64,000 bases of DNA from Anadara kagoshimensis (Eukaryota; Mollusca; Bivalvia; Arcoida; Arcidae): positions 70,112,356 to 70,176,355 of the forward strand of contig CM037865.1 in the NCBI GenBank assembly GCA_021292105.1, in the 5' to 3' direction. Positions 1,912-28,026 of the stretch are shown in pieces; the stretch's first letter is position 1, and every line of letters starts with the position of its first letter. Both the position numbers and the translations under genes were made by a program. The notes under the pieces were generated by a model. That model had not been told where the DNA came from. It was given only the letters and a program-made list of their open reading frames with translations, and did no database searches.

Positions 1912-10118
<8,207 letters not shown>

Positions 10119-13100
10119 AGAAAGGATGACTTTCAATCACAAAATTAAATGTGTAAATTACTCTTTGTGTCTGAGATCCATTATAATAGTAGTAATCTGA
10201 GGTGATATGGAAAAGAAAGATTAGACAAACAGGATAGATTTTATTAGAATCTTTCTTTTCTCTCTCTTTATCATCATCTAATGTTATCAGATTTCAGGGG
10301 AGATAACTACGTAATAATTAAACACAAGTCTCTGATCGAAAAGGCAATTTTGTTAGGTCATATTTCATTAATATTACTATTTATTAACATTTTATCCATG
10401 AAAATCACAAAATCAGAAATAATTATGATCCAAATTGTTTATGTAGTATAAGGTTTTATAGATGTTTTGAAAATTTGAAAAAAATATCATGTTTTGTTTG
10501 TATAATAAAGGACTTTTGGAAAATCAGAGAATGACAATTAGAATGGGATGAAGAGGTTTTCTCTGAATTATGACAATGTTTAGCAAGAAACAAATTTGCA
10601 TAAAAATAGAGACACTTTAAATATTTTAAAAAACTTTGTTTTTAAACAGAAAACAAATTTTAACAAAATATTGATAATAAATGAAATTGTGATTTACCAA
10701 CAATTCTTGTACATGACAAAACAATTCATATAATGTTATAATTGCAATTTTAAACCCAGTGAATCGTAAGATGTGATCATATGTGATGTGTGGTGATGAG
10801 AAGTATTGTAATATACAGAGTGAGCTATTCAGTAAAACCTTCAATAAATGACATTATCTTTACGATAGAAATGATGGGATTTTTACAAAGCTACTTAATA
10901 TTTCCTTAATGATATTGCCAAAAGTAATCACACTGCTACACCGTTTTCTTTAACAACTTTATGACATAAAGTTTATAGGGGAAAAAAACGGAATGACCGA
11001 ATTTCAATTCAGCGTTTTATTTGCCAATTCGGTGATTTTTAGCCGATTTTGGCGATATGTGGGGCCCTGCTTTATGTGCAACTTATCACATAAATAACCC
11101 AAGTTTTCATCAGTAAGTGTTCACCAGAATGAAAAATTGTTTTTGAATTTTTGACTTCATTTTAACTGTATTTTAAAATATAAATCATTCAGTGATGAAT
11201 TGACATTATTGAGATCTGTGATTAGAAAACATAATGTCTGGGCACGTTATTATAACTGTGGATCAGTCAATGTTTGAAGTGTCAATATCTAGATTGATGG
11301 CTAGAGTATAAGAGTTCCAAGTAGAATACTTCACTGGTTCTTTTATACTAAAGTTACTTTAAAACAAAGATGTCACTGTGTTTAAGAATACCATTTATTG
11401 AGAGATTTTACTGTATGGAGAGATGTGTTGGTCAGTTAGAGTCTGTCACAGGGATTTTATCTATACTACATGTAAATAGTAAAACAAGCACCTGTTGATG
11501 ATGTCGTTAACAGGTGTTAATATATTGGTGTACTTATTTAAATATTCTTAATGTACAGTTAGAACTGTGTGTCTCATTACACCATGTTATGTCGATACAC
11601 CATTCCTGTGTGATGCTGTTTTAGGCTTGCAATGCGTTTTATTCTGTGAAATACTTTATGCTATATAAGTGTTCTATACGAGATTGCTTCTAAAATCATT
11701 GAAATCCATATTGAGTTGAACTCTCTATCTATTTATAAATTGTATTTATTGTTTTTTGAGAAATCCATGGCAATGAAATTTTGTTTGATATTAAGAAATC
11801 CATCGCAATAAAAATGTTTTTCAATTGTAAAATTCTACTAATAGTGCAATTTTTCCGTTCAATACAAATATTGATAAAGAGATTTGTGAAACTAGTATTC
11901 TGCTAGTGTTGTTGATAACATAATCATGTAAATGTCTTGATTACAGGGAAATAACTTCAAATTTCTGTACTGTTAACAAAAATCAAATGAATTACCATAA
12001 TGTATCTATGTAGTAATCTGCCATTTACTTGGCGGCGAATTACAACATGGACAAATTTTCTCTTCTTAATCTTTGACTCTATATTGTTGTGATACCAGAC
12101 TTTTTTCTTTGGTTGCGAAAACTTTGTACAAATTGCACTGTGATATTTTTTGTTAATTTTTTTGTATAGATCAACGATATGATACACCATTTTGAACATG
12201 TATTGGAATAGTTCTCGTGTTTCTTTTGACTACTTATTTGGTCGATTCTGACGATTCATAGGGAATGTTGTGGCAATGTCATAGAACAAGTACAGAACAA
12301 AATGGATACCTCAAAAAGTTTGTAAAAGTTCCAACAGGATTTGACTTTTGTCATTTCATTCATCAGAATCATTCTGATGGCATTATCTTGGGTACTTGAT
12401 TTTGGACCATGCCAACAAACAAAATATATAACTCAAAAATTGGTAAACTTTGGACCATGCTAACTGTATGTCCCAAGGGAGAAAGAATTGTATATATCAT
12501 TCTTAAGGATAAAATTAACAATTCTACAGTGTTGTTAAACATTTAAATTTACATAATACCAAAATATTAACATTACCAGTAATTTAATTTTACATATTCA
12601 ACTTTACATGAGAATGGACTTACACTGTCGACACTATGTTTTCTATACTTTACTGAGAATGGGTTGTTGGTAAAGTCTGTAATCCATGCAGGATAAAATA
12701 TTACAGGTAATCTAACTTACACGAGAATGGACTTACACTGCCGACACCATGTTTTCTATACTTTACTGAGAATGGCTTGTTAGTAAAGTCTGTTTTGAGA
12801 ATGAGTTGTTAGTAAAGTCTGTACTGAGAATGAGTTGTTAGTAAAGTCTGTACTGAGAATGAGTTGTTAGTAAAGTCTGTTATGCTTCTTTTCTGTTAAT
12901 CTTTACCATTATTATAATTATTATTATTGTTGTTGTTGTTGTTGTTATTGTGTATATACATACAAGGATATGTAACAAAACCAAATCATCAAGGCAGGTC
13001 TTCAGCTGACAAATATTTTATTTTTATTAATTTTTTATTTTTTATTTTATTTAAATAAAAAATGTATATATACAAACCAAATTCTGTACATTCCAATCTA

Positions 13101-13700: not shown

Positions 13701-13989
13701 TGATGGTGGCAAGCAAGGTCCCTGGTTTAGTACCTGTATGATTTGCTCATGCTAGTTCCATTGTTCCATTGTTGATGATTTTCATTCTAAGTATCTCCTC
13801 ACCTCACTTCACCTATCCTCTTCGTGCCCACTGCTACATAAAGGCCCCATTCTAGATATCTACATATAACTAAATGGGACCCTGGTTGTAAATTAAGTGG
13901 GATGGTGTGTGTCATCTTATAGTCCTATAACCACACCACTGAACATCATTTTGCCATTTGATTTATTGCCTTTCCAAGGTCAGATAACA

Positions 13990-14102
13990 TACCGGTCCTT
14001 GTCCAAATCACAATCCCAAAGCAAAGCAAAGTAAAAGCTTTGTAATGTAAACACGCAAACTTCCATCAGGGAAGCGAGACCAAATGCTCTGGAAGGGTCA
14101 TC
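13990..14102 (+). repeat. Family A repeat, 5' part
   Basis: Starts ggtccttgtccaaatcacaa and runs to ctctggaagggtca. This is the leftmost member of family A in the window. Confidence 0.7.
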
Positions 14103-14226: not shown

Positions 14227-14232
14227 TTTATT
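14227..14232 (-). terminator. Polyadenylation signal of cassette 2
   Basis: AATAAA on the minus strand, in ctcaataaacgg, shortly after the TGA at 14309. It supports cassette 2 being a functional 3' end. Confidence 0.55.
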
Positions 14233-14308: not shown

Positions 14309-14527
14309 TCATGAAAAATCATAAGTAAAGATACATGAGTGATTGGTCCTGCTTGGCTGAACTTTGACCCATCCTTTGTCAGCAAGGCCAACAACATCAT
14401 ACGGATCATAAAGCTGTGTATACATTAGAGAAGATACTCGCTCGTGTTCTATGCCGTAATCCATCTCGAAGTAATAACCATATATACTAGCTGTGTGGCG
14501 GGAATGGTCAGATCCTGGCCAGTTTAC
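14309..14527 (-). CDS. DUF4434-like gene, cassette 2 last exon
   Basis: 72 codons and a TGA stop: VNWPGSDHSRHTASIYGYYF, SSLMYTQLYDPYDVVGLADK and FTYDFS at the end. It matches the cassette 1 last exon at about half its residues. A canonical AATAAA (14227-14232, minus strand) lies about 77 bases past the stop. Confidence 0.8.
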   Translation of the reverse strand, partial: VNWPGSDHSRHTASIYGYYFEMDYGIEHERVSSLMYTQLYDPYDVVGLADKGWVKVQPSRTNHSCIFTYDFS

Positions 14528-17500
14528 CTAGAAAACAAACATTAATTATAAAACTGAAATATTGAAATATAAATACATGTATATTAAATCCCACGAATAC
14601 TAACACAGACCGGTATGTTTGTGTTTGATTTTATATGTTCAAATAACTTAAGATTGTAATTAGGCTAGTGGAATTGTTCTTTTATATTTATACCCAATGT
14701 TTGAATATGCAATACCAACTAGGTGTAGTAATTATGTTTGTACAACTAAAACAGTCTTGCAAAATGGAACACCGATCCATGTCCAAACTACAATCCCAAA
14801 AGCAAAGAAAAAAAAAACTGAAATTAAGTTAAACATTGGGCCTTCCACAAGGAAATCTAGAGTTGGGTGCTCCAGAGAGGTAAACACATCTAGTCTGGCT
14901 AGAAACAACTGCCATATCTAATCAAAATGAAAGTGAAAGGGACATGGAAGTATGGTGTGTCAAATATATCCAGAGTAATCCTGGACACGGAGTCAATACT
15001 ATTGTGATGGCGACCATGACCATAAAACATTTAAGGGCCATAAGCTTAGACTTGCAATATTTAATGAGTCATTTCAAGCACAACGGTCAGATTATTATAG
15101 CCTATACAACTAAGATGTATATTTCTTTAACTGATGTTTTGTAAAATGAATTATAATTAATATACCCAAGGTATTGTTTTATACTTACCGTAAAAGACCC
15201 TAGGTTATAGCCTACAGCAACAACAGAACGATTTGCGGCGGAATGGAAGAAACAATCGGAGATAATCGGCGCTCCAAAGTTGTGTTGTATCTGAGATGAT
15301 AGGCTGTAGTTATATCGTTTAGTTTTACAAGTAAAGCCTGGATCCCAAGCAAAGGATACGATTTTCTGTGAAGTAGCTCCAGCTCCGGTCAAAGACCTGT
15401 CTACACGACCTTTAACTGTCTTGGCTAACATCTGGTCACTTCCAGAGCCTGCAGGATCAAGTGGTAAACAAGGGTCATCATGAAGATACTCGAAAGCTTC
15501 AATCGTCAACCAGAAATCCACTTTCTTACCATTTGCCACCAAATTGTCTCTAGCTCTTCCAATGTCTTTAAATAACTGGAATTATAACATTATACAAAAT
15601 TGTATGATGCTGTTGAGAATCTCTCATGTACCTTGCCGCCTTGTATCTATATATGGTTGGTCAGGTGTTTGACACACATTGTATGGAATGCAGAATATTA
15701 AGTTGCCAATGAACATATAGTATTGATCTATACTACATACAAATATGAAAAAAACATAACTTTTCTGAAGCATTTGCTTGATATTCCTTTTGTGATCATG
15801 ATGCAAACACACTTCGGATATAATTGTAACACCTTAACGTCACAAAAAGCCATATAAAGAACGATATATAGCAGGCTCCAATAAATGTTCTACTGAATCG
15901 TTATCACTAGTTTTGACAGGTTCAGTCTTATCCAGATAAAGACTTTTCTATATCGGGAATCAACTAAATGTGATTCTAAAAAAATTCTAAAGAATTACTT
16001 GAGCATCTAATATTTTATCCCGTGTAAAAAGTATAAAAACCTTTGAATTTTCTACACTTCACACCACTATCCTTCATTCAATATTGAAATAATGTCTAAA
16101 ACAAATTATTCACTTCTCATATTTTTACAAAAATGGTAAACAAAGATGCAAATACCTGATGCTGAACAGAGATTCTAGTTTTTTTTAATCAAGCATCATA
16201 CAGACTCCAAACAAATTTATACGGAAGATACCACCAACAAAATATTAGTTTTTGATAGACAACATGTTGTGTTTGGTAATATAACTTTCCAACAAACATT
16301 CGGTATATCAATGGGCACAAACTGTTTACTATTGCTTGCGCTTGCTATTCGTATGAAGCAGAATTTATGCAGAACCTTATTAAATCTGGAGAGAAGACTG
16401 TGGCCAAATCATTGAATTCCACATACAAATTTTGAGATTGCGTTCTATCTGTCAATAATCCCACGTTTAGAGATTATTTGGATGCAATTCATCCTAGCGA
16501 GTAAGATATAACAGATGTGACTGATTCTTCCATAGATTTATACCTCAACTATGACGTCAACGTAATGCTACATTTGAAGCTGCATGACAAACGCTTTGAC
16601 TTCAAAATTGCCTAGAAAAGGAGAGTTGACAATAGAAAAATTGAAGTTATCACGTTTGTCATAAAGTTTCAAATGTAGCCTTTCGTGGATGTCATAATTG
16701 AGGTACAAGTCTAAATATGGAGCAGAACTTCTGAAGAGGAGTCAGTCGTATCGTTTCTTTCAAACTCACTGCGATAGATTCCATTCATATATCCCGGCCC
16801 AAAATTCAAAATATAGGATTAATAAAATACAAAGCCATGTATACATGTAACTGTATATTGGATTTAATGATTTGACGACTTTACTTTCAAATTGCGAAAC
16901 ACTGATTGAAAACAAAACAACTTAGCTAGACAGTAAAATCTTTAATTCTAATCATCAAAACTGAAAATAAAGGTACAAGAATGGTACGATCCTCCGGCCT
17001 GCACGGTTACCCATCCACTCTTCGCTAAATCTATTGCGTTATAGGAATCGTATAATTGTGTGTACATCAACGATGGCAATCTCTGGTGAGCTGAACCCCA
17101 ATCCAGTTCAAAATAATATCCATGTACGTCAGTCATTATATGTCTCTGTCCATCTCTATCTGGCCAGTTGACCTGGAAATACAAAACATTTTTATGTACA
17201 TATAAACAGTAACCTATTGCAAATAAAGTATAAATATATTAATCAATCAAAACAAACACACCAGTCCATATTAAAACCATAATCTAAAAAACACAGTTTT
17301 TACTTTGAAAACTGGTAAATTTAGTCAAGACATGAACCTCCACTAGGAAAGTGAGACCGGGTGCTAAGGAAGGGACACAATAATTGAAGACAATAATTGT
17401 CCCCTAAAACTATAGATAATGCCGATAGTAAAATAAACACCCAGACAAGACAGACATATATGATATGTGACCCGCGCGCAACGACAAAGGTACAATTCAG

Positions 17501-19023
17501 CTTTTACGTCACAATGTGAGAAAATGACGTCAAACTTTATCGATGTTTTGGCGGGTTGCCTACGAATACCAGACAAAATGATAAACAGGCACCTTGTTGT
17601 GTTATTAAAAGGCTCGACAATGTAATAAAGAAATATACTAACACATTTTGGCAATGTGTTTTTGCTATGTTTCTATTATAACATTTAAAGACATGACATT
17701 AAGATCGCTTACACGTTGCCAATCCGATTAAATTTCGTAAGTCATTTTATTTTTTGAAAAGCTAACAGCTTACACCTGGTAAGTTTAGGGTATTACTATT
17801 TAAATCTGATTATATGTAATGAGAAATAATAAAATGTACCGAGAAATTAAACAACCATGTTATATCAGAGATATGTCTCTGGTTATATGAGAAGGACAGA
17901 ACAATTGTCGATGCAACTTTAAGGATTTAAAGTAACGTCTGTACTGATAACCAAAAGAACAACACAAATACCAATCCATGTCAAAGTCACAATCCCAAAA
18001 AGCAAAGCCAGAACTTTGAAACTGGCACATTAAGTGAAACACGGTAACTTCCACCAGGGAAGTGAGGCTAGGTACCCATTTAGCTAGCTACACCAACATA
18101 CCGTAAATCCCTGCGTTTCTCCTTCCAGATTGTAACCAATAACAACCACAGACTTGTTGTATTGAGAATGGAAGAAGCAGTCAGCAATGATTGGTCTACC
18201 ACTGTCAGCTCTGATCTGGGCAGCTAGACTTCCATTGTGTGCCTTGGTCGTACAGGTAAAGTCTGGATCCCAGGCAAAAGATACGATCTTCTGTGACGTA
18301 GTTCCAGCCCCTGTCAGGGATTTGTCTACTCGTGATTTGGTTGTCCTGTCCATGATCTGACCATTGCCTGATCCGGCAGGGTCAATAGGTAAACATATGT
18401 TGTCATCATCTTGTAGGTATTCATAGGCTTCAATGATAAACCAGAAATCTATCTTCACTCCGTCTTTGACCAAAGTGTCTCTGTGTTGACCAATGGCGCT
18501 AAACAACTAGAAATACCACGAGAAATGCACGAAATAAGATTTATTTCTGAGCGTTTTTACGATTGGAGTATTAGTATGTACAGGTTATTATAACATATTA
18601 GTTCTAACGGTTTCATAAAGATAAAGTCACAGAAAAGCTAATCACATTTTTAAATCACATGTAGCATTCTGAGTATTTGAACCAAACATTTTTAAAAATG
18701 AGTTAAGATCTTTTTTGCTTTTAATACATTAGTGACAAATTAATCTGATCTATCAGGTTAAAGCCAATATCCATTTTACTTAGCTTAAAAACTTTAGACA
18801 GACAAACATTATTAAATTGGGAATGAAAGTCATATGTTTGAGAAGTAAGGTATCCACATTAGAGTGTGATATAATTGCGCTGTAATGACCGATAAGTTTG
18901 TGTTTGCTATTGTTTCATGTAATGAATTAATTGTTACATGATATTAGAAATCGCCTAATACGTTTAAGACTAGTATCTCAGTAATTTGTTGTTTTTTCTT
19001 ACAATTATCATCATCATGAACAA

Positions 19024-19054
<31 letters not shown>

Positions 19055-21190
19055 AATAGTTTATCCAAGTATTAATTATCTTTCAAAAAAAATCTCGAAA
19101 GTGTGTTTGCAAAAAATCAAATTTAATACATTTTAAAAATTCAAACAAGTGAGAAAATACGGCAGCTACGTTTACTTTGCTAAGCCCTTTTAACCTTGTT
19201 CATTTTGTCCGTTTTCAAAAAGAAATTACAGTAATTAAATTAAACAAACCTCTTGATTGCTTCCAGAGAACACTTCTCCAAATGTAACATTCTCCTTCCA
19301 GCTCGGATTTCTATACCGGATTATCTGGTCAAGTACAGGATCTATTTTACTGATGGAGGAATTAGTTTGAGTTGGCCAGTAGTAAGCTCCCCTTCCCATT
19401 CCCCGTCCTTCATAAATAGCAACATTGTCTATTACACTCGAGTTTGCTAAGACCTCAAATCCCTTTACATGAGAGTCAATGATGACATTGTTTGGAGAGC
19501 GTTTCTTTAAACTTTTATTCGAGTCGCCATCCAAGTTTATATTCATGTCTATGACGGCCGATACTGTGAAGAGTTTTCCAGGAGCTATATTCCGAATTAG
19601 GTTCCCAACCGTTTCAATTTCTGTAAATTGGTTAGAATTCTCGTATATATTAAGAAGAGAGCAGTCCTCATTGAAGTAATACCCTTTAAGTGAGTCATAC
19701 AAGGTGACGTTCTTTTTGTTAGTCTTTTCATTTGTATATCTATTTTTATGATCTAACAAGATTCTACTGATCCATTCATAATAAGGTTGCAGGAATTGCT
19801 TCACATAAAATGTAAATCCGTTCTCGTCCATTGGAGCTGGTGGTAAACTGAAGTAAACAGACATTTTGTGTTCCTGTGCACTCTGAAGTAGTAACTCGTG
19901 TGGATCAACTCCGTCAAAGACCGTAAACAGTATATAAACTGATTCTCCGGCAGGGTATGGACATGAACTGTAAAAAATATAAAAATACACCATGTAGATT
20001 ACATTGTGTAAAATTATTGTCTTTTATGTGTTTGGCTTTTCTGGTCTTGTTTGGCTGCCTTTTTCTAGCGAAGAGCATGTACATGTATTTGACAACGCAC
20101 CAACGCAACCATGAACAAGGCACAATCCAAGTTAATGATAAAAAATATGCAATTAGAATCAAAATATACCGAGGCATAGTGAAAACGAACTCCTAAAATC
20201 AAAGTGAAAATAGCAAGTTGATTTAAACATTTGAACTTCTAACAGGAAACTGGTCTGACGCCGAGTAATGGTGAGAGCCACTCGTATTATTAACTACATC
20301 CGCCCCGTGTGAGATGTTTGAAATGTGAAAATGATAGGAACATGCATGGAACTATGAATCGTAAACATATCCAAGATAATTTTGAATACAAAGACAAAAT
20401 ACTTATCAAAATTATTTCGATGACACCATTAACTGGTGAGAGTTTTGATCAATAATCCCAGGTTTGCAATAATTTTGCTTAAACAAAGTATACAACTGTC
20501 GTCGGAAAAAGACACTAACATATAGACGCCATTGACCGTAAATACTCCCGGCTTTAGACAAACATTGTAGTGAAAGATCCGGTGCAATTTTTGGACCTCA
20601 ACTATTCCACCTGTCTTAATGCAAATTCATTAACGATGACAAATAGTAACTAAAACTGTTTCCAAAGAAAATATTTACACAATTATTTACCTGACATTAT
20701 TTACAGGTAGTACAATCCTGTGGTAAATCCTAGAACCAGCTATCTTTACATCTAAAGGCGGACATTTAATTATAGAATCACCATAGTTTTCATTATACTT
20801 GTATGTAGCGAAACCAGCGAAATTCAAACCTGCTTTTGTCACAACTTGTATAGCATCGTCAAAACAGTTGATCTGAGAACTTCCATTTGAACCACTTTTA
20901 CAATACTTAAAATCAGGATCTTGTAGTAATTCAGACTTATTGAATAGCATAATAGGTGGCGCTCCGAGCATAATAGTGTCGCCATCTTGTTTTGCAAATT
21001 CAGTCAACGTTTTGTTCCATTCTTCTTTTGTGAACCTGTCTTTAAACCAAGCACCTGTTATGGGATATTTTGGTCCAAATGGACCTAGATTTTCGTCCTC
21101 AGCTCCAGTGGTCAGTTGTCCTGTGATAGCAACCACAAACAATAAAATACATGTAAAAGATTGCATGTCCAAAATTTGGTTTCTATTCAT
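14309..21190 (-). CDS. Secreted DUF4434-like protein with two alternative last-exon cassettes
   Basis: Exons on the minus strand: 21190-20691, 19967-19250, then cassette 1 (18506-18102 and 17172-16948) or cassette 2 (15575-15189 and 14527-14309). All splice sites are GT/AG and the phases agree, giving about 615 or 607 residues. Residues 9-29 form a signal peptide (start MQSFTCILLFVVAITG). The body starts ITGAWFKDRFTKEEWNKTL and carries GYYFNEDC, YEGRGMGRGAYYWP, IDFWFIIEAYEY and KIVSFAWDP, the landmarks I associate with DUF4434, a TIM-barrel family related to glycoside hydrolases. Several N-glycosylation sequons (NKT, NKS, NGS, NSS, NVT) fit secretion. The reaction and substrate are unknown. 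Family assignment is by remembered motif pattern, not a search, so moderate. Confidence 0.7.
14761..15062 (+). repeat. Family A repeat, nearly full length
   Basis: From ccgatccatgtccaaac through ggagtcaatactattgtgat to agcttagacttgcaatat. It lies in the cassette 2 intron of the DUF4434-like gene. Confidence 0.75.
15189..15575 (-). CDS. DUF4434-like gene, cassette 2 penultimate exon
   Basis: 387 nt, 129 codons, phase 0 to 0, acceptor AATTCCAG, donor ACG|gtaagt. It reads LFKDIGRARDNLVANGKKVD, FWLTIEAFEYLHDDP, SLTGAGATSQKIVSFAWDP and ISDCFFHSAANRSVVAVG. By eye it is about 60% identical to the cassette 1 exon, with two small gaps. No first exon or signal peptide lies between it and cassette 1, so it is best read as part of the same gene. 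Confidence 0.8.
15940..16615 (+). mobile_element. Penelope-like reverse transcriptase fragment, plus strand
   Basis: Conceptual fragments in order resemble the Penelope-like RT: VKSIKTFEFSTLHTTI near 16030, QTFGISMGTNC near 16300, SYEAEFMQNLIKSGEKTVAK near 16370 and LHDKRFDFKIA near 16590. The same order is seen in the better copy at 31.0-31.9 kb. It is decayed, with several interruptions, and lies between the two cassettes of the DUF4434-like gene. Confidence 0.7.
16616..16800 (-). mobile_element. Inverted second piece of the same Penelope-like RT
   Basis: On the minus strand the sequence next to the junction reads LKLYDKRDNFNFSIVN, the same RT segment that ends the plus-strand fragment (LKLHDKRFDFKIA). 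The two pieces meet tail to tail near 16615, making a divergent inverted repeat with arms of roughly 130-170 bp. Confidence 0.65.
16948..17172 (-). CDS. DUF4434-like gene, cassette 1 last exon
   Basis: 74 codons and a TAG stop: VNWPDRDGQRHIMTDVHGYY, LPSLMYTQLYDSYNAIDLAK and a C-terminus FIFSFDD. An ATTAAA polyadenylation variant (16941-16946, minus strand) follows the stop almost at once, so the 3' UTR would be very short. Confidence 0.8.
   Translation of the reverse strand, partial: VNWPDRDGQRHIMTDVHGYYFELDWGSAHQRLPSLMYTQLYDSYNAIDLAKSGWVTVQAGGSYHSCTFIFSFDD
17250..17388 (+). repeat. Family A repeat, 5' part
   Basis: From aaacaaacacaccagtccat to gtgctaaggaagggacac, in the intron of cassette 1. 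Confidence 0.7.
17965..18095 (+). repeat. Family A repeat abutting a splice donor
   Basis: From ataccaatccatgtcaaagt to ttagctagctacacc. The repeat ends about six bases from the donor at 18101, so the intron side of that donor is repeat-derived. Confidence 0.75.
18102..18506 (-). CDS. DUF4434-like gene, cassette 1 penultimate exon
   Basis: 405 nt, 135 codons, phase 0 to 0: LFSAIGQHRDTLVKDGVKID, then FWFIIEAYEYLQDDD, SLTGAGTTSQKIVSFAWDP and IIADCFFHSQYNKSVV. The donor ACG|gtatgt lies only about six bases from a family A repeat. Confidence 0.85.
19021..19055. repeat. (AAAT)n microsatellite
   Basis: About eight AAAT units in the intron between exon 2 and cassette 1 of the DUF4434-like gene. 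Confidence 0.9.
19250..19967 (-). CDS. DUF4434-like gene, exon 2 (central barrel)
   Basis: An exon of 718 nt from acceptor TTTTTTACAG to donor CAAGAG|gtttgt, 239 full codons. It holds SVYILFTVFDGVDPHELLLQ, the GYYFNEDC strand, the basic SLKKRSPNN loop and YEGRGMGRGAYYWPTQTN. It ends phase 0, so it can join either downstream cassette without loss of frame. Confidence 0.85.
20225..20415 (+). repeat. Family A repeat, degenerate 3' part
   Basis: Recognisable words are ggaacatgcatggaactatg, catatccaagataattttg and atacttatcaa. It lies in intron 1 of the DUF4434-like gene. Confidence 0.5.
20691..21190 (-). CDS. DUF4434-like gene, exon 1 (signal peptide)
   Basis: Two in-frame ATGs, at 21190 and 21166; the second directly precedes the hydrophobic stretch QSFTCILLFVVAITGQLTTG and could equally be the start. 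The exon ends GTC AG|gtaaat, leaving two bases (phase 2), completed by T of the next exon as serine. The barrel start ITGAWFKDRF is here. Confidence 0.8.
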
Positions 21191-25770: not shown

Positions 25771-28026
25771 GTTTGTTTATCATCCCCTGCCGAAAATCGG
25801 CTGAGGGATAAAGCAATAAATTTCACTCACCTATCCGTCCATATATCCATACGCCATCCTTCTTTTCTGAACCAGTTCTCCAATATCATTCATCAGATGT
25901 TGATGAGACTTTACACGAATGACCAGTCGAAGGTGTCGTTTTGCATATCGTTTTGTTGTCATCCTTCAATGATTTTGCCTATAATAACATATTTGAAGAA
26001 CATTATATATACATATTGTTTGAAACTGTTTTAACATTGTTTTGTATTGCTTAAACTAAAGGATTGATTCATTTTTCAGTTTTTCCTCTTAGAATGAATA
26101 TTTGTGTGCTGAATATGTTACAGTTAGAGAAAATAAAATTATGCAAAATTAATGTTATTGTTCAAACATAAGTTCCATTGTGTTGTTTCAGTTTATGAAT
26201 GCCTTAACTTCAATATCTCGTATTTCTGATTTTTCTTTATTTTGTTTATTTCAGCCCATGATTGCCGGATGGATTTTATCAAAGCGAACAGAGAGAAGAA
26301 GGACTGGGAGGCCTGGATGTATGCTAAAGGAATGAGAGAAACATACAAAAGTCTGAGTGTTATACATACCAAAGTCATACAAAAGTCGTCAAGTGGAGCA
26401 ACAAAGTAAGTTGTAGAATATATATGTAAACCACCTAACAAATTAGTCTGAACAGATAACCGAAGGATAGAAAAGCACCATTCAAAACATACTCGACATC
26501 TGCATAACAGTTTGGTTGCTGCAAGAACACTTTAAATAATGTTTTCTATATCCAAAACTGGATGCCTTGTATGCACTGTCGCAACTAGTCTATGAGATTA
26601 ACTATTGAAATCTTTGAACTTCCGTCGCACTAATGTCATGATTTACCTTAAATAAACCTTCAATGTAATCACAAACAGTTGTAAATAATCAAGCAAGGGT
26701 TCGACTTTTGGAAGCACGATATTGCCCAATGCAATTAAAATGTTTGTCTGCCATGTATAACTGTACACAAACATACCGGCTCAGATCCAAATAACAATCC
26801 AAAAAACAAAGTCAAAAAACTTTAGAAACTGACATATTAAATGAAGCTAGTGATCTTCAACCAGAGAGACCGGTGCTTTGGAAGGGTAAACACCACGTGT
26901 CTAGCTATATAATACCCACCACATGTGGAATCAAAATTGAGAAGGAAAGGAACCTAAAACTGAGATATTATTTAGTATTTTAAATAAGATAAAGTTACTA
27001 AACTTAATTTTATAAATAAAGGTTGAATTCCGTTCCATGAAACAGCAAATATTTAAAGCTATGCTCATCATAATTGTTGCAATGGATATAATATTACATG
27101 TACTTTATTTACAACAACTGTTTATATTTTCTTGTAGACCAGACAAGCTGTTATTTGACGTAGGAGTGAGAGGGAATGGTCTTGGGGATTTTGTATACCC
27201 TAGGGGATTATCCGTTACTCTAGATGGAGATATCCTTGTTGCGGACACCGATAACAGTAGAATACAAATCTTCAATCAATTTGGACTCTATAAAAGAAAG
27301 TTTGGAACAAAAGGAAACGCAAAGGGACAGTTCGATCAGCCAACAGGGGTTACTGACATGCCCAACGGTAACATTGCAGTTGCTGATAAGAATAACAAAA
27401 GAATACAAGTGTTCTCAGAGGAGGGAAAATATAAATATGAGTTTCCCACACTTGATCCTCCATTTTGTATCTGCTGTGACAGAGATTTCAATACTGTCGT
27501 ATCCACTACCAAGAGAACTATTGAAATTTACAATAGGGAGGGAAAACTTCTTCATTGTTTTTATATTGGAGGAAAGTCGAGAGATCGGGTAGGTTGCCAA
27601 ATATGCATAAATAACATTAGAGCGGAAGTTGTAGTATGTGATACAGTGACCGGTCTAGTTAAGTATTTTAAATATGACGGAAAGAAAGTGTTTGAATTTG
27701 AACCAAAATCGGCAAGTGAAGGTCTTACAATGGTCCCAAGTGCAATTGGACTAAGTCCGCTAGGAGATATATTAGTAGCAGACGCTTTGAATCACGTAGC
27801 TAACGTTTACTCAGACAAAGGTGTTTTCATAAAACAGTTGCTCTGTCCAACAGATGAAGCTGGAGCTATTCAGGCATGCGCTGTAGGACCGGAAGGACAT
27901 TTCATTGTGACCGAATTTAGTGTTGATGGTCCCCATTCGCTAAAAATATTCCGATACCTGCAATGTGTATGTCATTTAACAAGACCAGGGTCCAGCAAAC
28001 GTTCAACACCTACACAAATGGATTAA
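25638..28026 (+). CDS. NHL-repeat protein without RING or B-box
   Basis: Three coding exons, 25638-25770, 26255-26405 and 27138-28026, with agreeing phases (1, 2) and GT/AG sites, give 390 residues. The ATG follows AAA and precedes G; an acceptor (ATTCTAG) 14 bases before it shows a non-coding 5' exon further upstream. Residues 1-95 are hydrophilic and charged, with YRDLYHENAPYIFARRPQ and REKKDWEAWMYAKG and no zinc-binding pattern. Residues 96-370 form an NHL beta-propeller: FVYPRGLSVTLDGDILVADT then DNSRIQIFNQFG, FDQPTGVTDMPNGNIAVADK then NNKRIQVF, and a later IGLSPLGDILVADALNHVAN. NHL propellers bind RNA or protein and usually sit after RING/B-box in TRIM2/3/71-like ligases; here the ligase part is absent, so a binding or scaffold role is the safest inference. 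Confidence 0.85.
26255..26405 (+). CDS. NHL gene, second coding exon
   Basis: Acceptor TTTCAG, 49 full codons (HDCRMDFIKANREKKDWEAW to SSGAT), donor AA|gtaagt. It is lysine/arginine-rich with no recognised domain. Confidence 0.75.
26765..26953 (+). repeat. Family A repeat
   Basis: From acaaacataccggctcag to aaaattgagaaggaaaggaa, in the second intron of the NHL gene, 185 bp before the last exon. Confidence 0.65.
27138..28026 (+). CDS. NHL gene, last exon (beta-propeller)
   Basis: Acceptor TTCTTGTAG, then the split lysine codon and 294 further codons to the TAA. The whole propeller is in this single exon. An in-frame ATG at 27037 lies in the intron and is not the start. Confidence 0.9.

Follow-up and report, generated by a model that had tools for sequence, protein, structure and literature searches.

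The 64,000-nucleotide stretch of Anadara kagoshimensis DNA analysed here (contig CM037865.1; hereafter the window) carries a minus-strand gene related to bacterial DUF4434 proteins, and the last two exons of this gene are present twice. The first exon, e1 (21166-20691), begins with an ATG at 21166, encodes a hydrophobic start and the first strands of a predicted barrel, and has an N-terminus that is signal-peptide-like by hydropathy alone (Kyte-Doolittle type scan). Exon e2 (19967-19250) encodes the middle of the barrel. Both are common to two predicted isoforms, which end in different two-exon cassettes. Cassette A comprises e3a (18506-18102), which carries strands 418-424 and 471-475 of the predicted model and Glu424, and e4a (17172-16948), which encodes most of a C-terminal beta-sandwich and ends in TAG. 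Cassette B comprises the counterparts of these exons, e3b (15575-15189; 84/129 residues identical) and e4b (14527-14309; 38/72 residues identical, stop TGA). The predicted products are 607 (isoform A) and 599 (isoform B) amino acids long.

Read directly from the sequence, the splice dinucleotides are AG at 5/5 acceptors and GT at 4/4 donors. Scored against the usual consensus, the donors reach 8/9 (e1), 6/9 (e2, GAGGTTTGT), 7/9 (e3a) and 8/9 (e3b). The e1/e2 junction is in phase 2. Because the junction entering each cassette and the junction inside it are in phase 0 in both A and B, the two cassettes are interchangeable after e2, and this phase match may also allow an e3a-e4b hybrid. An earlier interpretation made from the letters alone (the sequence-only reading) had described the last two exons as present twice, with open frames, splice sites and their own stops; direct checking of borders, frames and dinucleotides confirmed this description.

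When isoform A was compared with the 1.1-Gb genome of the same species at E 1e-3, six matches were obtained, corresponding exactly to the six exons. This search scores the best candidates only, and distant relatives may escape it. Neither the window nor, at E 1e-3, the genome yielded another copy of e1 or e2, and the gene is single-copy at this threshold. A third cassette was found neither in the window by tblastn nor among the six genome matches. An exon-by-exon search of the genome for the Pfam DUF4434 family gave 0 matches.

Divergence of the two cassettes

Cassettes A and B are identical at 122/201 aligned residues (123/202 in a separate pairwise alignment that counts the shared stop), and their tblastn cross-matches within the window are far beyond chance (E 5e-49 for exon 3 and 9e-20 for exon 4). 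Gaps in the protein alignment comprise whole codons only. Cassette A has four cysteines and two N-glycosylation sequons; all of these recur in B, which has one extra sequon.

The sequence-only reading had called for a comparison of synonymous and non-synonymous change. Across 603 aligned coding bases 37% differ, with 58, 49 and 117 differences at codon positions 1, 2 and 3 (chi-square p ~1e-8). The non-synonymous distance (dN) between the cassettes is 0.31 by the Nei-Gojobori method, and the synonymous distance (dS) is not finite. Together, the excess at codon position 3 and the divergence indicate that the duplication is old and that the coding sequences have been under purifying selection. 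Judged by constraint tests that cover A versus B and both cassettes versus bacterial relatives, this selection has acted on both for much of the time since the duplication.

The introns gave one candidate for homology between the cassettes, a match of 95 nt (73%) between 17967-18061 and 14768-14855. We rejected it as a dispersed repeat; since the repeat also occurs near 13989-14078, the match is no sign of a duplicated intron. Each cassette has a copy of this repeat in its inner intron (17967-18061 in A and 14768-14855 in B), and a third copy (13989-14078) follows shortly after B.

Bacterial relatives and predicted fold

Isoforms A and B score 14.3 and 12.1 bits against Pfam DUF4434 (PF14488), below the curated cut-off of 30. 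In tblastn searches of plasmid records, a Nonomuraea protein (DUF4434, 55.6 bits) aligns with query residues 34-571 (24% identity, E 4e-27) and a Paenarthrobacter protein annotated as DUF4434 (35.3 bits) aligns with residues 33-528 (E 2e-13). Scanning genome contigs for relatives yielded 77 loci. Among the plasmid records and genome contigs searched, all relatives found are bacterial, and actinobacterial by their titles. We aligned 27 of the bacterial loci with isoforms A and B, and a DUF4434 match at E up to 1 was seen in 29/29 rows. We conclude from these comparisons that the window protein is related over its full length to actinobacterial DUF4434 proteins, though itself under the Pfam cut-off. 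The earlier label DUF4434-like therefore holds for homology, since accepted members align along most of the protein, but not for the Pfam score of 14.3 bits against 30.

Other searches were negative. The PDB sequence search gave no match up to E 1 for isoform A or for the 29-row profile, NCBIfam gave no match for isoform A at E 0.01, and scans of bacterial and viral contigs with a two-row alignment gave no relative. The window gene also differs in structure from the bacterial genes, among them that of BT_0435 (PDB 4h41), which we take to be a DUF4434 protein: these are single open frames, whereas the window gene is split into exons.

In the cassette region, 41 alignment columns are at least 90% conserved among the 27 bacteria. 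Cassette A keeps 17 of these residues and cassette B keeps 20, with 17 in common. Across this region A matches the 27 bacteria at 26% mean identity and B at 27%. Of the 48 sites that differ between the cassettes and offer a bacterial residue for comparison, 23 place A nearer to the bacteria, 22 place B nearer, and 3 are tied. By these measures cassette B shows no visible decay, and the two cassettes are about equally diverged from the bacterial proteins. The sequence-only reading had estimated roughly half to 60% identity and had proposed an old duplication with both copies retained; the measured identity, the signs of selection, the equal divergence and the retention of the same conserved residues all agree with it.

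These figures also bear on a different explanation, in which a tandem duplicate of the gene lost its e1-e2 and survives only as cassette B, a silent 3' relic, leaving isoform A as the sole product. B does lie 3' of A, the window and genome matches include no 5' exons belonging to it, and its acceptor tract at e3b is weak (7/15 pyrimidines, versus 10/15 at e3a). Despite its high divergence, however, B is free of stops and frameshifts and its splice sites are intact, it is about as close to the bacteria as A is, and it keeps slightly more of the conserved positions. We consider it unlikely that B is such a relic.

The structure predicted for the window protein (predicted template modelling score, pTM, 0.80) is a glycoside-hydrolase-type TIM barrel followed by a C-terminal beta-sandwich. 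An earlier fold obtained from the two-row alignment was discarded (predicted local distance difference test, pLDDT, 26.9). Clan GH-A glycoside hydrolases have a TIM barrel with catalytic Glu residues at the ends of strands 4 and 7. In the model, Glu424 is the final residue of strand 418-424 and is identical in 29/29 rows. One column of strand 252-262 holds Glu in almost every row; the window protein has Asp260 at this position, beside Glu259. We read strands 418-424 and 471-475 as the last two barrel strands of the predicted model. With this numbering, the cassettes would supply the last two strands of the barrel, with Glu424, plus the sandwich. FWFIIEAYEY (419-428) and SFAWDP (474-479), previously suggested to line the barrel, are located on or just after these two strands in the model, consistent with that suggestion.

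Probable alternative use of the cassettes

The sequence-only reading had assigned each cassette its own possible polyadenylation signal. For B, the candidate is an AATAAA at 14227-14232 (minus strand), 76 nt beyond the stop. For A, only the variant hexamer ATTAAA is available as a possible signal, at 16863-16868 (minus strand), 79 nt beyond the stop; further ATTAAA copies are found 1 nt and 758 nt beyond the same stop. There is no AATAAA on the minus strand from 16947 to 15576, that is, between cassette A and e3b.

We consider it probable that one gene uses A and B as alternative 3' terminal cassettes and so gives rise to two isoforms. The product would be a DUF4434-related protein of glycoside-hydrolase type, secreted and probably N-glycosylated, from a single-copy gene in which an ancient tandem duplication doubled the last two exons. 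A single promoter and exons e1-e2, common to both isoforms, would give one pre-mRNA with a weak e2 donor. Splicing of this donor to e3a, followed by e4a and by cleavage at the variant ATTAAA, would produce isoform A. If A were skipped or read through, e2 would be joined to e3b and then e4b, with cleavage at AATAAA, to produce isoform B. The variant hexamer after A would let part of the transcripts continue to B. The isoforms would have the first six barrel strands in common and would differ in the last two strands, their loops and the sandwich. A choice between two C-terminal halves from one gene, as the sequence-only reading envisaged, fits the selection on both cassettes, their equal divergence and the unduplicated e1 and e2; from this we infer that both are used.

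Several observations weigh against alternative use. Each cassette lacks at least 21 of the 41 residues conserved in the bacteria, as would be expected of a distant relative, and because of these losses enzyme activity is not assured. The acceptor tract of e3b is poor, as noted above. The comparison of A with B averages over the whole time since the duplication and is compatible with a recent loss of use. As evidence for 3' ends, the hexamers suggest little: AATAAA is common in the window (245 copies on both strands, compared with 201 +/- 14 in shuffles), so a single hexamer carries little weight. Finally, intron 2 pairs with the A/B spacer (-29.5) no better than shuffled sequences do (mean -29.1, standard deviation 2.0, n = 25), so in this single-sequence scan a switch through competing RNA structures finds no support. 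Rfam models gave nothing at gathering score between 12000 and 24000.

Cassette B could instead be transcribed from a private first exon, yielding a separate short protein, secreted or anchored. The sequence-only reading had reported the interval between the cassettes to be free of first exons. This is correct in that no copy of e1 or e2 occurs there, but a weak candidate exists on the minus strand at 15773-15678, with an ATG at 15773, a hydrophobic start (hydropathy 3.06; Kyte-Doolittle, nine residues) and a phase-0 donor (7/9) 102 nt before e3b. The same combination is found in 3/92 like-sized stretches of the window (perhaps counting this one) and is not rare. Furthermore, a product missing barrel strands one to six would be unlikely to adopt the modelled fold, and the candidate is without homology support. 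We regard such an origin for B as very improbable.

If A and B are alternative cassettes, the switch is more likely to tune substrate or partner specificity, or to follow the tissue or condition of expression, than to toggle activity, because Glu424 is kept in both isoforms. A more tentative possibility is a combinatorial hydrolase, in which the likely-nucleophile end of the barrel and the sandwich would be swapped, perhaps with e3a-e4b hybrids as well, to give enzymes of different specificity. Should both cassettes be expressed, one gene would yield two proteins with the barrel mostly in common and with different catalytic-end strands and accessory domain. This would be a natural swap inside an active site, with a defined exchanged block that would make its effect measurable.

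The spacer between the cassettes (16179-16800) resembles decayed retroelement DNA. It has a plus-strand open frame with what we take to be a reverse-transcriptase-like motif; the only Pfam match for the spacer was below threshold and to an unrelated family. Inverted arms of 73 nt (16533-16605 and 16641-16713) are 81% complementary, and 16500-16745 folds into a long hairpin (-87 kcal/mol). Overall, the spacer looks like old mobile DNA. Elsewhere in the window, a plus-strand open frame at 27016-28026 has NHL repeats (74.4 bits, cut-off 20), and a plus-strand frame at 9900-10118 encodes the last part of a C2 domain (22.3 bits against a cut-off of 22) that is synaptotagmin-like by eye. A 29-nt tandem repeat with few units is present at 12761-12905.

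Comparison with known systems

In a limited literature search we found no earlier report of this gene, and no papers with the term DUF4434 were found in the literature searched. The design itself, alternative tandem 3' terminal cassettes, has already been described for PGRP-LC in insects, pip in flies and AOX in an oyster, to which we liken the window gene. Its homologous terminal exon sets stand in tandem and in the same phase, their splice sites are intact, and each set has its own stop and 3'-end signal (hexamers only). The upstream exons are present once (in the window, and among the best candidates in the genome at E 1e-3), and both sets appear to be under purifying selection.

One of the closest known systems is PGRP-LC, in which, according to PMC2715215, a common 5' part and the first part of the ectodomain are joined to alternative two-exon 3' cassettes with introns at identical relative positions. 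Anopheles PGRPLC is a membrane peptidoglycan receptor, unrelated in function; it has three cassettes, and its transcripts, including a hybrid, have been shown, whereas those of the window gene are predicted. The combinatorial hydrolase considered above would be analogous to this kind of ectodomain switching in immune receptors, here at an enzyme active site.

Drosophila pip and CG42235 are both named in PMC9013439 as having 3' variable regions. Unlike the window gene, pip has eight clusters, and competing RNA structures are reported to select among them there, whereas no pairing above chance was seen here. Competing RNA structures are reported as the selector for PGRP-LC, pip and CG42235. PMC3228551 cautions that the choice between homologous terminal exons often lies with poly(A) sites and not with mutually exclusive splicing in the strict sense.

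Among molluscs, the comparison is with oyster CvAOX, which PMC5589949 terms the first such case. CvAOX is a mollusc enzyme gene and, like the window gene, has a tandem duplicate of terminal sequence, two C-termini (predicted in the window gene) and key residues kept in both copies. It differs in that one exon is duplicated rather than two, the product is a mitochondrial oxidase, and stress-dependent use has been shown, with 3' alternative splicing favouring one form under air exposure. If both cassettes are expressed, the window gene would be a further molluscan case, beside oyster AOX, of duplicated terminal exons acting as a switch.
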